Shown here piece by piece: positions 8,417-64,000 of a stretch of 64,000 bases of DNA. The translations under genes were made by a program, and so were the position numbers. The stretch lies in contig NZ_FPCG01000008.1 in the NCBI RefSeq assembly GCF_900116905.1, positions 1 to 64,000 on the forward strand, written 5' to 3'. The stretch is from Micrococcus terreus (GTDB lineage: Bacteria > Actinomycetota > Actinomycetes > Actinomycetales > Micrococcaceae). The notes under the pieces were generated by a model. It ran no database searches. It was not told where the DNA came from and was given only the letters and a program-made list of their open reading frames with translations. The first letter of the stretch is position 1. Every line of letters begins with the position of its first letter.

Positions 8417-8544
8417 GGTGACTCCTGATCTCTCAGGGCCTGTCCGCCAGCTGCGGTTACCGCCCCTGGATCAGTCCGCGTCCGAGGATCACCCGGAGCG
8501 CGCTGTGGAGCGGCTCACCGGCAGCCAGGGCGTGGGCCCGCGCT

Positions 8545-8655
8545 TGCCTGCACCGTTGTGGTGCCTGCCTGGTCCTCACCCGGGGCACCCCACCGCGAGT
8601 TGGAGGGTTGCCGGCCAGCGAGCCGGGGCTTGACGCTGACACTCATGACCTGCCC
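8545..8655 (-). ncRNA. SAM-IV-type riboswitch upstream of metY
   Basis: On the minus strand the spacer holds GGTCATGAGTGTCAGCG, CAAGCCCCGGCTCGCTGGCC, GGCAACCCTCC, CGCGGTGGGGTGCCCCGGG and a closing GAGGACC. These segments, in this order, match the conserved core of actinobacterial SAM-sensing leaders (SAM-IV/S-box related). P1 closes by GGTC (8650-8647) with GACC (8574-8571). A small downstream hairpin GCACC-ACAAC-GGTGC follows, as expected for the SAM-IV extra helix. About 130 nt then run to metY, including a GCGGTTAACCGC-like hairpin and the AGGAG ribosome site. The metabolite and target pathway agree. Exact borders and the switching mode are inferred. Confidence 0.88.
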
Positions 8656-56931: not shown

Positions 56932-57254
56932 GCTCCTGACCCGGGCGGGTGACCGCTGGGCGTGCTGCTGACCCAGGGTTTCTGAGCTGCACTGATCGGC
57001 GCTACGTGGGTCTCGGTTGCACGTATTGCCGAGAGGCGAAACCGTGATGCACAGTTCGACGGTTTCGACCCCGGAACTGGTCAAGTGGTGCAACAGCCCC
57101 TCGGATTCCGTCACACGGTGCAGCAGGGATCAGCGTCCTCCCAGCGCCCTCCGCGCCGGACTCCCGTCCTGCACAGGAGTCCGGCGCTCTCGGCTGATCA
57201 ACAGGATGCCCGCCCGCCCATGCGACCTCACGCCCCGCAGGGTCTGCTGGGGGC
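56932..57254. repeat. Intergenic array of 30-bp-phased TGCAC motifs (copy A)
   Basis: No gene is seen in this 323-bp spacer. TGCAC-type hexamers begin at 56987, 57017 and 57047 (exact 30-bp steps), and inverted GTGCA hexamers begin at 57088 and 57118, with a 41-bp step across the centre. The inner pair 57048-57052/57088-57092 and the outer pair 57018-57022/57118-57122 share one symmetry axis. A GAC/GTC pair at the fixed offset strengthens the central dyad. The right end carries GTGCAGCAGGG. See copies B (58191-58448) and C (62782-63125). Confidence 0.65.
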
Positions 57255-58190
57255 ATGGCACCACGTTCGTCCCCACTGCTGTCCCCCGTCTTCACACTCG
57301 ATGAGGCCCGTGCCCACGGACTGACCGACTACGACCTCTACCGTGCTGGCTTGGAATCCCCGAAGCCCGGCCTGCGGATGGCTGCCGGGCATCAACCGGA
57401 CCCGTTGCAGGTGGCCGGCAAACTGGCCACGCGCGACCCCTCCCTCATCCTGACCCACCAGACCGCCGCGCACCTCTGGGGACTCTGGCTGCCCTCCTCC
57501 ATGCGGGAGCCCACCATTCACCTGGCACGGAGGCGTGGTCACGGCGGGATTCCGCGGGTCGACGGCACCACCGGCCACCTCACCGCCGCGCAGGACCAGG
57601 ACCTCCGCATGATCCGCGGCGTGGCCATCACCTCTCCTGCCTGGACCTGGACCGACCTGGCCTCAGAACGTCTCACGCTCCGAGAACTGGTGGCGGCGGG
57701 AGACTCCCTGCTCCAACGCCCCGATGGGCCACCCCGCTCTGGACGCCACGAGGGGATGAACCCGTTGTCCACCCTGGCCGAGATGCGCGAGCTGGTGGGG
57801 CGGCGTCCAGGAATCTGCGGCGCACCCCTGCTTCGCGAGGCACTGGAGCTCGTCCGCACCGGAGTGGATTCGTCGCCGGAGTCGTGGGTGCGGACCGGTC
57901 TGCTGGACGAAGGATGGCCCGAGCCCGAAGTGAATCCTCTGCTCTCATTCGAGGACGGGTGGTCTGTTCGCCCGGATCTGGCCTACCGCCAGTGGCGGAT
58001 CGCCATCCAGTACGAGGGCCAGCACCATTTCACCGAGGCTCAGCAGTACGCCTCGGACATCCACCGGGACGATCGGCTGTCACAACGAGGCTGGGAGACC
58101 ATTCGCCTCTCCTCCCGTGTGCTGACGCCGGTGGGGTGGGGCGAGTTCACCGACGGACTGCGTCGCGCCGTCCAGCGGCAGACCCGGTGA
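57255..58190 (+). CDS. DUF559/Vsr-like nuclease-fold protein with winged-helix N-terminus
   Basis: This 311-aa protein has an N-terminal half (DEARAHGLTDYDLYRAGL, HQTAAHLWGL) resembling the AbiEi/DUF4095-like winged-helix region. The C-terminal 100 residues (VRPDLAYRQWRIAIQYEG, then HRDDRLSQRGWETIRL) fit the DUF559 fold, where Asp and Glu/Gln-x-Lys residues form a PD-(D/E)xK-type site. Here the second acidic position reads IAIQYEG, so catalysis is uncertain. It lies between two copies of the repeated TGCAC array. Proteins of this sort are patchy and commonly move; their function is unknown. Confidence 0.72.
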   Translation: MAPRSSPLLSPVFTLDEARAHGLTDYDLYRAGLESPKPGLRMAAGHQPDPLQVAGKLATRDPSLILTHQTAAHLWGLWLPSSMREPTIHLARRRGHGGIPRVDGTTGHLTAAQDQDLRMIRGVAITSPAWTWTDLASERLTLRELVAAGDSLLQRPDGPPRSGRHEGMNPLSTLAEMRELVGRRPGICGAPLLREALELVRTGVDSSPESWVRTGLLDEGWPEPEVNPLLSFEDGWSVRPDLAYRQWRIAIQYEGQHHFTEAQQYASDIHRDDRLSQRGWETIRLSSRVLTPVGWGEFTDGLRRAVQRQTR

Positions 58191-58448
58191 AGCAGCTCTG
58201 GTGGGGCCGCCCCCGCGAGCACAGGTGGAACTCCTGCGGATTCAGCGGGACCCTGTCACGCCGTTGGACTTTTCGCTGAGCTGCGTTGCACACCTCGGCG
58301 AGATCAGCCTCAGTTCCCGCCATGTCATGCAACATTGACTGCGCTGGCGCCGAACATCGCATCACAGAGGACCACCTCGACGATGTGTGCAGCAGGGAAT
58401 CGACGTTCCGCGATCAAGAGCGTCCGCACGAACCCTAGGATGGCCACC
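58191..58448. repeat. Intergenic TGCAC/GTGCA array (copy B)
   Basis: No gene in this 258-bp spacer. TTGCAC begins at 58286, and 41 bp on lies the inverted ATGCAA (58327). A weaker TCGCAT (58357) and GTGCAG (58387) follow at exact 30-bp steps. The centre pairs as GGCG (58297-58300) with CGCC (58318-58321) at the same offset as in copy C. The right end reads GTGCAGCAGGGA, as in copy A. It precedes the DUF885 gene, whose ribosome site AGGA is at the right end. Confidence 0.6.
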
Positions 58449-60951: not shown

Positions 60952-62781
60952 ATGACCGAGTCGACACACCCGTCCTCCCCCGCCGCCCGCCCGTTCTCCC
61001 GGGTGCTGGTGGCCAACCGCGGAGAGATCGCCGTCCGGGTCATCCGGGCCGCCCATGACGAGGGCCTGACGGCCGTCGCCGTGTATGCCGAACCGGACCG
61101 GGACGCACTGCATGTGCGGATGGCCGATGAGGCCATCTCCCTGGGCGGCTCCACCGCCGGGGACTCCTACCTGGTGATCGAGAAGATCATCGAGGCCGCT
61201 CGCACCGCTGAGGCCGATGCCGTCCACCCGGGATACGGATTCCTCTCGGAGAACGCCGACTTCGCCCGTGCCGTGGAGGCGGCGGGCCTGGTCTGGATCG
61301 GACCTCCCGCCGAGGCGATCGAGCAGCTCGGGGACAAGGTCTCTGCGCGCCACCTGGCCCAGAAGGTCGGCGCTCCCCTGGTGCCGGGCACGGCAGATCC
61401 GGTCACCAGTGCAGATGAGGTCCTGGCCTTCGCTGACGAGCACGGTCTGCCCCTGGCCATCAAGGCCGCCCACGGTGGCGGTGGCCGCGGCATCAAGGTG
61501 GTCCGCGAACGCGAGGACATCACCGAGCTGTACGAATCCGCCGTGCGTGAGGCCACGGCCGCGTTCGGCCGTGGAGAGTGCTTCGTGGAGCGCTTCCTGG
61601 ACGCCCCGCGCCACGTGGAGACTCAGTGCCTGGCCGATGCCGCCGGCAACGTGGTGGTGGTCTCCACGCGTGACTGCTCCCTGCAGCGCCGGAACCAGAA
61701 GCTCGTGGAGGAGGCACCGGCCCCGTTCCTGACCGCCGAGCAGCAGGAGCGTCTGTACAGCTCCTCGAAGGCGATCCTGCGTGAGGCCGGGTACCGCGGT
61801 GCGGGCACCTGCGAGTTCCTGGTGGGCGTGGACGGGACCATCTCGTTCCTGGAGGTCAACACCCGTCTGCAGGTGGAGCATCCGGTCTCCGAGGAGGTCA
61901 CCGGGCTGGACCTGGTGCGGGAGCAGTTCCGGATCGCCCGCGGCGAGGAGCTGGGCTACGGGGACCCCGAGGTCCGCGGCCACTCCTTCGAGTTCCGGAT
62001 CAACGGCGAGGACCCGGGCCGCGGCTTCATGCCTGCCCCTGGCACCCTGAGCACGTTCCGCCTGCCCGCCGGCCCCGGCGTGCGCGTGGACACCGGCGTG
62101 GAGGAGGGCGAGACCATCTCCGGCGCGTTCGACTCCATGGTGGCCAAGGTGATCGTCACCGGCGCCACCCGCGAGCAGGCCCTGCAGCGCTCCCGCCGTG
62201 CCCTGGCCGAGATGCAGGTCGAAGGGATGCCCACGGTGCTGCCTTTCCACCGTGCGGTGGTGTCCGATCCCGCGTTCGCCCCGCAGGACGGCAGCGCCTT
62301 CACCGTCCACACCCGCTGGATCGAGACCGACTTCCAGAACACTCTGGAGCCCTACCAGGGTGGGATCCCGGCCGCACCGGACGCCCCCACCGCGGAGGAG
62401 CGCCGCACCATGACCGTGGAGGTCAACGGCAAGCGCGTGGAGGTGACCATTCCAGCCATCTTCGGGGCGATCTCCACCTCGGTGACCAATACGGCCAAGC
62501 AGGCCGGCCGTCGTCGTGGTGGGCGCGGACGCAGCCGTGGCGGTGCCGCAGCCGCCGCGGCCAACGGGGACACCCTGACCTCGCCCATGCAGGGCACCAT
62601 CGTCAAGGTGGCCGCCTCCGTGGGCGACACCGTGGCCGAGGGTGACCTGATCGTGGTGCTGGAGGCGATGAAGATGGAGCAGCCGCTGACCGCGCACAAG
62701 TCCGGCACCCTCACCGAGCTCAATGCCGAGGCCGGCGCCACGGTGACGGCTGGTGCCGCCATCGCCACCATCGAAGACTGA
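60952..62781 (+). CDS. accA: Acyl-CoA carboxylase alpha subunit (biotin carboxylase plus BCCP)
   Basis: A 609-aa biotin-dependent subunit of acetyl/propionyl-CoA carboxylase. The N-terminal biotin carboxylase begins [20 protein letters not shown] and contains the ATP-grasp [12 protein letters not shown] and the active-site [15 protein letters not shown] basic Gly/Arg linker ([12 protein letters not shown]) leads to a C-terminal biotinyl domain with [11 protein letters not shown], whose Lys is biotinylated by BirA. It works with the beta and epsilon subunits at 55-57 kb for fatty-acid precursor supply. Actinobacteria keep several alpha subunits; which acyl-CoA is used is not decided by this sequence. 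AAGGAG precedes ATG 60952. Confidence 0.94.
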
Positions 62782-63125
62782 CTCCACCGGCTCGACCGGC
62801 GGGGATCTCCGATGCAGCCTTCGTCCCTGCGGTGATCCTGGTTGCACACATCGTCGACTCCTCTGCCTGAGTTGCACGGTTCGTCCTGATCCCCCCTGAT
62901 CGTGGACACCTCGTGCAACCCATCGCCCCGAGTCGACCAGTGCTGCAACAGGGTTCTCCAGCGCCACCGGCCGGGGATCGACCGCCCGCCCAGGCCAGCC
63001 CTTCGGCCTCCGCATGTCCACTATGTGGAACGAGTGGATCCGCATCGTGGACCGCGGTTTACGATCAATCGTCGCTTCGCACACGAACGACGACTGAACG
63101 ATCCTGACCTGGAGGGATGCCCCCG
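62782..63125. repeat. Intergenic dyad-symmetric TGCAC array (copy C)
   Basis: No gene in this 344-bp spacer. ATGCAG (62812), TTGCAC (62842) and TTGCAC (62872) step by exactly 30 bp. After a 41-bp step come GTGCAA (62913) and CTGCAA (62943). All symmetric pairs share one axis near 62895: TTGCA/TGCAA (62842/62948), GTCGACTC (62853-62860) with GAGTCGAC (62930-62937), GTTGCAC with GTGCAAC, and GTCC (62883-62886) with GGAC (62904-62907). The result is a 107-nt imperfect palindrome. The right third holds the MFS promoter region. Confidence 0.7.
63017..63029. promoter_or_regulatory. Palindrome TCCACTATGTGGA, candidate operator for the MFS gene
   Basis: TCCAC-TAT-GTGGA is a perfect 5-3-5 inverted repeat 97 bp before the transporter start. 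IclR-family regulators of catabolic genes and transporters often bind short dyads of this shape. A TACGAT (63060-63065) downstream could be the -10 hexamer. No regulator gene is in view. Confidence 0.4.
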
Positions 63126-64000
63126 ATGAGCACTGACCTGTCCACGCCGAGCACGGACGGCCGCCGTCCGGACGGGCGCCGCATCAAGGACGACGGCACC
63201 GCCGAGCTGGGGGTCCCCCGCTCGCGCATCGTGATCGCCTCGCTCATGGGCACCTCGATCGAGTTCTACGACTTCTACATCTACGCCACCGCCGCGGTCT
63301 CGGTGTTCCCGCTGATCTTCTTCGCGCAGGGCGACGACAGTGCGGCGCTGCTGGCCTCCATGGCCACCTTCGGCGCGGCGTTCGTGGCCCGCCCGGTCGG
63401 CTCGGTGCTCTTCGGCCACTTCGGGGACCGGATCGGGCGCAAGGCCACCCTGATCGGCTCGCTGCTGACCATGGGCATCGCCACGTTCCTGATCGGCCTG
63501 CTGCCCACGTATTACCAGATCGGCCTGTGGGCCCCGGCCATGCTGACCCTGATGCGCTTCTGCCAGGGACTGGGCCTGGGCGGCGAGTGGTCCGGAGCGG
63601 CACTGCTGGCCACGGAGACCGCCAAGGAGGGCAAGCGCGCCTGGGCGGCCATGTGGCCCCAGCTGGGCGCCCCCATCGGCTTCCTGCTGGCCAACGGCCT
63701 GTTCCTGGCCCTGACCCTGGCCTTCGACCACGACTCCACCAACCCGGACATGGACGGTGCGTTCCTGACCTGGGTCTGGCGCCTGCCGTTCCTGCTCTCC
63801 CTGGTGATGGTGGCCATCGGCCTCTACGTGCGCGTGAAGCTGGAGGAGACCCCGGTGTTCCAGCGCGCCGTGGACAATGACGAGCGCGTCAAGGCCCCGC
63901 TGGGCGAGGTGTTCCGCCGCAACTGGTGGGAGCTGATCCTGGGCACGTTCATCATGCTGGCCACGTACGTGCTGTTCTACCTGATGACCACCTGGATCCT
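63126..64000 (+). CDS. MHS-type MFS transporter, N-terminal part (runs off the window)
   Basis: At least 291 aa of a major-facilitator permease of the metabolite:H+ symporter branch. MGTSIEFYDFYIYATAA is the first helix signature, GHFGDRIGRKATLIG is the loop-2-3 motif, and MRFCQGLGLGGEWSGAALL is the helix-5 motif, as in shikimate, proline/betaine and dicarboxylate symporters. Seven to eight helices are visible before the window ends. Substrate is unknown. GGAGGG lies nine bases before ATG 63126. It follows the carboxylase gene after 344 bp and is probably transcribed on its own. Confidence 0.88.
   Translation, partial: MSTDLSTPSTDGRRPDGRRIKDDGTAELGVPRSRIVIASLMGTSIEFYDFYIYATAAVSVFPLIFFAQGDDSAALLASMATFGAAFVARPVGSVLFGHFGDRIGRKATLIGSLLTMGIATFLIGLLPTYYQIGLWAPAMLTLMRFCQGLGLGGEWSGAALLATETAKEGKRAWAAMWPQLGAPIGFLLANGLFLALTLAFDHDSTNPDMDGAFLTWVWRLPFLLSLVMVAIGLYVRVKLEETPVFQRAVDNDERVKAPLGEVFRRNWWELILGTFIMLATYVLFYLMTTWI

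Follow-up and report, generated by a model that had tools for sequence, protein, structure and literature searches.

Between two presumed genes of Micrococcus terreus, for a biotin carboxylase/BCCP-like protein and an MFS-type transporter, lies a dyad-symmetric run of phased TGCAC motifs (array C), and the question raised by this locus is what kind of element it represents. The window is the whole stretch of DNA that was analysed (64,000 nucleotides). A sequence-only reading of it had described the run as a symmetric structure and offered three identities: a long RNA or cruciform hairpin, a REPIN/MITE-like element, or a protein-binding array on one helical face. The locus contains the following features:

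60952..62781, + strand: gene which we take to encode a biotin carboxylase/BCCP-like protein; its 3' end lies 23 bp ahead of array C
62805..62956, no strand assigned: array C, three + units and two - units, with TGCA starting at 62813+, 62843+, 62873+, 62914- and 62944-
62805..62828, + strand: unit 1 of array C, site-matrix score 19.3, without a mirror partner
62835..62858, + strand: unit 2, site-matrix score 21.4
62865..62888, + strand: unit 3, inner, facing the centre, site-matrix score 22.0
62902..62925, - strand: unit 4, inner, inverted, site-matrix score 15.4
62932..62955, - strand: unit 5, outer, inverted, site-matrix score 22.2
63117..63998, + strand: presumably an MFS-type transporter gene, downstream of array C and continuing beyond the window

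Read directly, the hexamers of array C are ATGCAG at 62812, TTGCAC at 62842 and 62872, GTGCAA at 62913 and CTGCAA at 62943, so that the positions and the 30-bp and 41-bp spacings given earlier are correct, as are the four pairs of arms placed on one axis, all of which sum to 125790. The symmetric layout stands for 62842-62948; the fifth unit, at 62812, is unpaired and forms a left-hand extension only, leaving three units plus two inverted ones. The claim that the symmetry exceeds chance is borne out by the genome itself (3,087,520 bases), in which four TGCA words at 0/30/71/101 occur six times exactly and ten times with at most one mismatch, compared with zero for the reversed pattern. With the same tolerance, four of 117 other relatives have one match each and five have control matches.

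A model of sequence without structure (R1), built from 12 ungapped array copies, recovered 13 loci in the genome, the thirteenth being copy B at 36.7 bits and the next independent locus having an E-value of 0.17. Each of the 13 arrays consists of four or five copies of an asymmetric site of ~18 bp, 30 bp apart and inverted over a 41-bp centre, with a unit make-up of 2+2, 3+2 (as in copy C) or 2+3. Two of the others lie in the window:

56980..57131, no strand assigned: array A, with TGCA at 56988+, 57018+, 57048+, 57089- and 57119-
58249..58400, no strand assigned: array B, with TGCA recognisable at 58287+, 58328- and 58388-, downstream of a nuclease-like ORF; the places at 58257 and 58358 are decayed (judged by eye in the model's register)

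Conservation is concentrated in the site. Across the 48 units of the 12 copies, whose majority sequence is ATCTCTGTTGCACGGCTCGTCGAGATCCGG, G-2, C2 and G10 are invariant (48/48) and A3 (47), G1 (45) and C12 (45) are nearly so. The bases outside the site are nearly, not wholly, random among arrays: identity at the 32 spacer positions set by the unit geometry is 28.5%, where base composition predicts 25.3%, and when the 45 columns of lowest conservation are picked on half the copies, the other half shows 34.8% identity at them versus 25.3% expected. With so little common ancestry outside the sites of the 13 copies, recent copying is not visible. Beyond the arrays, 233 kb of own DNA contain no excess of units (five sites of at least 12 bits versus five in the reversed control), and the top off-array site of 26 in own DNA scores 14.9 on the unit matrix. 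At 30, 30, 41 and 30 bp, the spacings are close to whole numbers of helical turns (3, 3, 4 and 3), and within the site roughly one turn separates the two conserved halves. Fixed phasing together with half-sites one turn apart would be the pattern expected of a cooperatively bound array.

The arms of the dyad, in contrast, behave unlike the arms of a conserved stem. In-register pairing about the axis gives 60.7% standard pairs in the 12 copies versus 62.0% with partners shuffled among copies; there is no excess covariation, all five measures falling below the shuffled means, and the consensus fold contains six pairs. In-register pairing exceeds that in slid registers (28.6-38.4%) because the inverted site is common to the copies. 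Since site and spacing are conserved and the arms lack covariation, the arrays resemble helically phased protein-binding sites and not RNA hairpins; the earlier suggestion of a protein-binding array on one helical face thus holds in part, through the conserved site and fixed spacing, and that of a long RNA or cruciform hairpin finds no support as a general property. Folding copy C itself gave a z-score of -3.97 (-5.2 and -6.0 for the two strands of its core), which is strong, and C9:52160 folds more strongly (about -10 and -9 on its two strands). Intermediate values were obtained for C27:13976 (about -3 on both strands), C30:314180 (-3.4 and -2.4) and C9:91528 (-0.8 and -3.1), whereas the other eight of the 13 copies lie near background, between +0.5 and -2.2 on both strands. 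A bidirectional terminator or mRNA-end stabiliser acting as an RNA hairpin would account for these strong folds, for the negative z-scores of 25 of the 26 strands (eight of them below -3), for the location of arrays at gene 3' ends and for the many bracketing dyads, described below, that are good palindromes. It is very improbable all the same, given the absent covariation and the eight copies near background, and the extra direct half-sites at 30-31 bp would be superfluous for a hairpin. Rfam has no match at its gathering threshold at array C; the single Rfam match in the window is a SAM-IV riboswitch at 8535-8650 on the - strand (105 bits).

Two classes of recombination site were also considered. 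The integron attC was set aside, since the arms lack covariation and its core boxes differ. Direct sites inverted across a centre bring to mind multi-site transposon ends, and array C could in principle be a MITE or the end-array of an ordinary DDE transposon. However, little sequence is common to the copies outside the sites, and array C has no DNA relatives in phage or plasmid collections, nor is there longer similar DNA in them, one weak match being found among 38 relatives; no parent element was found by DNA similarity in these sets, so ordinary transposon ends were rejected and the probability of this origin is close to negligible.

According to a simple codon-based gene call, all 13 arrays are intergenic, between convergent (3), divergent (2) or tandem (8) gene pairs. 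Ten of the 13 lie closer to the 3' end of a gene than to any 5' end, the exceptions being B and the two divergent cases, and the neighbours named by family search are functionally unrelated (e.g., enolase, Cpn60 chaperonin, sulphate permease, ribosomal protein S6). By eye, the 13 arrays seem clustered. The sulphate permease gene is bracketed by two arrays ~1.8 kb apart (L031:4153-6099; arrays C9:52160 and C9:53986). Between chaperonin and permease genes that lie 3' to 3' (L198:9690-10262), a TGCAC array is flanked by two palindromes of a second, sequence-unrelated system, whose gene is at C10:15611, so that a single landing site is common to elements of different systems.

A gene bracketed by copies A and B, which the sequence-only reading did not mention, provides a candidate partner for the arrays:

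57255..58190, + strand: ORF of 311 aa with an AbiEi-antitoxin-like region at about residues 49-148 and a C-terminal MTES_1575/DUF559 PD-(D/E)XK-like region at residues 243-287

The ORF sits between accE-like and DUF885 genes, and array A lies 48 bp past the accE-like stop and 124 bp ahead of the ORF. No homologue was found in the accE-DUF885 interval or the accD-to-accBC region of any of seven congeners (tblastn, E<=1e-5). The accE-DUF885 interval (window 56932-58440; L188-L194) varies between genomes, the two genes being direct neighbours in G007 and about 3.5 kb apart in G001, and is possibly a hot spot of variable DNA. Within the genus the protein has 33 matches, of which 30 had loci and were flank-tested and 29 were aligned (fragment L187 excluded). 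Pfam gives a weak MTES_1575 match for the window ORF (E 1.4e-4, under the gathering cut-off) and, for the 29 homologues at E<=0.01, MTES_1575 in 16, DUF559 in 10, AbiEi_1 in four and no other family; a Y1 HUH tyrosine transposase match is absent from these 29 proteins in the same search. The PADLOC AbiEi profile PDLC02249 matches 29/29 (best E 1.6e-12; window ORF E 9.5e-5), and the other PADLOC matches among them are DpdF in three and two further models in one each. No solved structure is similar to the family by sequence (one match, E 0.27). Invariant residues in the alignment include E209, D241, Y253, G255 and H258. At least 80% of members have Q at a position where E is usual, which makes the predicted catalysis uncertain. 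An AbiEii toxin gene was not called beside the window ORF, whose neighbours are the accE-like and DUF885 genes. A viral contig (L230) encodes a distant relative with 28% identity over residues 196-286 in a protein-alignment search.

Full arrays are confined to this genome as far as the searched sets extend: further copies were found within the genome, and no full array in relatives. R1 found none in seven congeners, five of which have weak partial matches (best 21 bits), and in 396 genomes of the order (own included, stricter filters) 15 others gave matches of at most 23.5 bits; those in other genera were judged by eye to be chance or single operators. The inner-pair pattern, searched in 396 genomes of the phylum, occurs ten times in the own genome and once each in nine others, which is on a par with the reversed control, positive in ten genomes. 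Candidates from the viral collection were likewise rejected: L140 is a lone dyad, and L216 and L217 have a single unit at the matched spot (14.8 and 11.7) without phased neighbours, which was taken as chance. Array C is missing from the congeners whose accBC-MFS gap was read, and congener intergenic DNA in that gap and in the accE-DUF885 interval is too diverged for element borders to be placed, so that a target duplication was not established. In Aeromicrobium flavum, 15 exact 59-bp dyads occur in 12 stretches (L125-L134, L138, L139), each with the half-site CTGAGTTGCAC (the search word) and an inner CGACACGCCG-like block; several seem by eye to lie a few bases past a stop codon, and the window protein has no tblastn match (E<=1e-3) in these 12 dyad-bearing stretches. 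In another family of the order, an operator-like palindrome around TGTGCACAGATCGTC (L150:1500-1583) lies upstream of what is presumably an FAD-oxidoreductase-like gene.

Homologues of the window ORF elsewhere in the genus have palindromes of their own. The two weak congener matches to R1 are single dyads with TGCA-to-TGCA distances of 42 and 41, and the half-sites of the dispersed dyads score 20.3 and 19.6 (G005) and 12.8 and 17.6 (G002) on the own unit matrix, for which the off-array best is 14.9. A half-site word taken from these dyads matched in four of 89 genomes (own included), several times in G002 and G005 and once each in G022 and G059, with three genomes positive in the reversed control. 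In G005, the gene most similar to the window ORF (51% identity) has one of these matches ~190 bp upstream and a second dyad immediately downstream. The word came from the two weak dyads and not from the gene, yet it landed beside the homologue, and this is counted as support; scored with the own matrix, the bracketing half-sites reach 16.1 and 11.1, and their partners stay below 11. A called 3' end lies within 50 bp at seven of the eight congener dyads or half-dyads, one of which also overlaps a called gene, and the exception is the upstream bracket. The palindrome of the closest homologue (G003, 57% identity), TGTGACACG, is visibly different, and raw alignment scores of the elements (own versus G003 9.0, own versus G005 7.5) are at background level.

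The flanks of the 30 genus loci were compared systematically, 350 bp upstream against 400 bp downstream, with a threshold of 17.46 (the 99th percentile of 137 control genes, all from the own genome). The test was passed by 21 loci, one of them barely (17.5 versus 17.46), and failed by nine, including that of the window (12.0), whose copies match by site motif only. Two control genes exceed the threshold, one of them being the sulphate permease gene that lies between arrays C9:52160 and C9:53986. The best palindrome spans 57-73 bp in 24 of 34 flanks (17 positive loci among the 18 printed) and is shorter, weaker or, once, longer in the remaining ten. Palindrome sequences differ between gene groups (18 loci compared), and the more alike two proteins are, the more alike their elements (r 0.77; 0 of 2000 permutations; 22 loci), a correlation carried by pairs above 60% protein identity, so that descent alone could explain it. 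These results bear on the idea of a chromosome-architecture or boundary array (BIME-like) bound by some other protein, with the nuclease-like gene as a bystander. Fixed helical phasing, intergenic position and functionally unrelated neighbours would all suit such an array, which is nonetheless distinctly improbable when full arrays occur in one of eight genus species searched and the flanks of homologous genes elsewhere carry palindromes particular to the gene.

Bracketing extends beyond the genus. Among seven records found in the plasmid collection, judged by a threshold from own-genome control genes, matching flanks were found for three of three Arthrobacter genes (24.5, 34.0, 24.5) and three of three Tsukamurella genes (26.5, a weak palindrome; 43.5; 40.0), and a Nonomuraea gene failed (12.5), giving six of seven. 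The 'plasmid' records (Arthrobacter ERGS1:01, 754 kb; Tsukamurella NCTC13231; L231, L235-L241) carry serS, lysS, purB, gatA and the like, all housekeeping genes, and look like chromosome pieces. Searched against 72,556 plasmid records, five bracketing elements matched solely in records of the organism of origin, at 11, 13, 44, 20 (on 8 contigs) and 12 (on 9 contigs) places, counts for which the true sites may be about half, as palindromes can be counted on both strands, and which refer to a plasmid collection with chromosomes as such outside it. The 196 kb examined from Arthrobacter sp. ERGS1:01 contain the element in seven merged stretches at six intergenic spots, none more than about 31 bp from the 3' end of an annotated gene. 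At least two of these are arrays, with direct half-sites 31 bp apart as well as inverted ones, and so repeat the layout of the window arrays with a different sequence in a different genus. In 334,810 bases of own DNA, the second system (gene C10:15611) has five further copies, one next to the gene and four at other spots, and a called 3' end lies within about 110 bp at four of these five copies and at both brackets; the element of the own paralogue L167 has no further copy in the same DNA.

The reading preferred here is that array C is probably a dispersed non-coding member of a cognate REPtron-like system built on a protein unrelated to RAYT. The earlier label of a REPIN/MITE-like element survives in this form to the extent of the dispersal and the bracketed gene. 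One part of the system would be a protein, represented here by ORF 57255-58190, that joins an AbiEi-antitoxin-like region for DNA binding to a nuclease-like domain of the DUF559/MTES_1575 (PD-(D/E)XK-like) type. The other part would be extragenic dyads or arrays derived from that protein's site, two of which, A and B, enclose the gene, while the remaining eleven, C among them, sit between other genes and in most cases closer to a 3' end. AbiEi of Streptococcus agalactiae binds cooperatively to inverted repeats, and AbiEi antitoxins autoregulate through such repeats, as reported (PMC7319586). From this reported binding, the bracketing and the co-diversification of genes and palindromes, we infer site-specific binding by the ORF product, and its binding to the arrays is predicted. 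One protomer may contact two adjacent major grooves per ~18-bp site, through a G-TGCA half and a T-Y-G-x-C half about one turn apart, and cooperative assembly of four or five protomers on the same face would let the protein regulate its own gene. Bound dyads might then be where the nuclease-like domain acts, and repair-coupled copying or recombination could spread the element into gene 3' ends, where least harm would be done. Spreading by cleavage and repair-coupled copying is put forward tentatively, at somewhat less than an even chance.

The same protein could instead be a regulator and nothing more. In that case an AbiEi-like regulator would use the palindromes as operators for its own control and as 3' insulators; the dispersed copies would be decoys or a lineage-specific regulon, and neither mobility nor nuclease action would be involved. 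The autoregulation of AbiEi antitoxins via inverted repeats (PMC7319586), the phased and cooperative-looking sites and the AbiEi profile in all 29 proteins are in keeping with this explanation. It appears unlikely, however, in light of the 3' gene ends nearest to 10 of the 13 arrays, the functionally unrelated family-named genes that flank them, and the six Arthrobacter spots each close to an annotated 3' end; copies on both sides of the gene, and in one organism only, fit dispersal better.

If the cognate system is as proposed, the problem solved by RAYT and REP would have a second solution in an unrelated protein family with private, dispersed and bracketing palindromes, and a role would be suggested for uncharacterised DUF559/AbiEi-like genes. 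Every gene predicts its own binding sequence, which makes the protein-site pairs testable. A broader proposal, doubtful by a small margin, is that these loci represent an undescribed kind of actinobacterial selfish DNA, in which the mobiliser would be an AbiEi-type domain fused to a PD-(D/E)XK-like nuclease, a private palindrome would bracket each gene, tens of copies would lie behind 3' ends and could grow into helically phased arrays, and targeted cleavage with repair-coupled copying would replace a DDE or HUH transposase. Cleavage-driven copying, if true, would be categorically new. No published description of DUF559/AbiEi-like genes with bracketing palindromes or arrays was found in a search lying mostly outside the subscription literature.

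Several known systems share parts of this organization. BIME/BOX-type modular intergenic repeats are similar in having modular arrays of sites between genes, whereas in the present arrays conservation is mainly of site and spacing, and there is a candidate binder whose gene is bracketed. The AbiE type IV toxin-antitoxin system has in common the AbiEi-like region (by PADLOC profiles), but differs in that here a nuclease-like domain is fused to it, an AbiEii toxin gene was not called beside the window ORF, and copies of the site are dispersed. Some palindrome families are without a known dedicated gene, as stated for CGTC REPs, which are reported to have 8-9-bp stems and no dedicated transposase (PMC3733652). 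Like those, the present elements are dispersed extragenic palindromes with a CGTC-like motif (TYGTC within the site), although TYGTC lies inside an asymmetric ~18-bp site and not at the foot of a short stem, and a bracketed gene is present. REP/REPIN elements with RAYT genes are the best-known extragenic palindromes having a dedicated gene. In the REPtron, a RAYT (TnpA-REP) gene is flanked by GTAG REPs or REPINs that are also dispersed, extragenic and often near gene 3' ends (PMC3733652). The systems described here resemble REPtrons in that a gene is bracketed by palindromes (A and B in the window, 21 of 30 genus loci, six of seven outside it) that are also dispersed extragenically. They differ in that the bracketed protein is AbiEi/DUF559-like and not a Y1 HUH tyrosine transposase, that there is no GTAG tag at the foot of a 20-40-bp stem-loop, and that half-sites of ~12-24 bp are combined in dyads of about 40-73 bp or in arrays phased at 30 or 31 bp. 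The architecture of the system is thus already known from the REPtron, and the protein is new to it.
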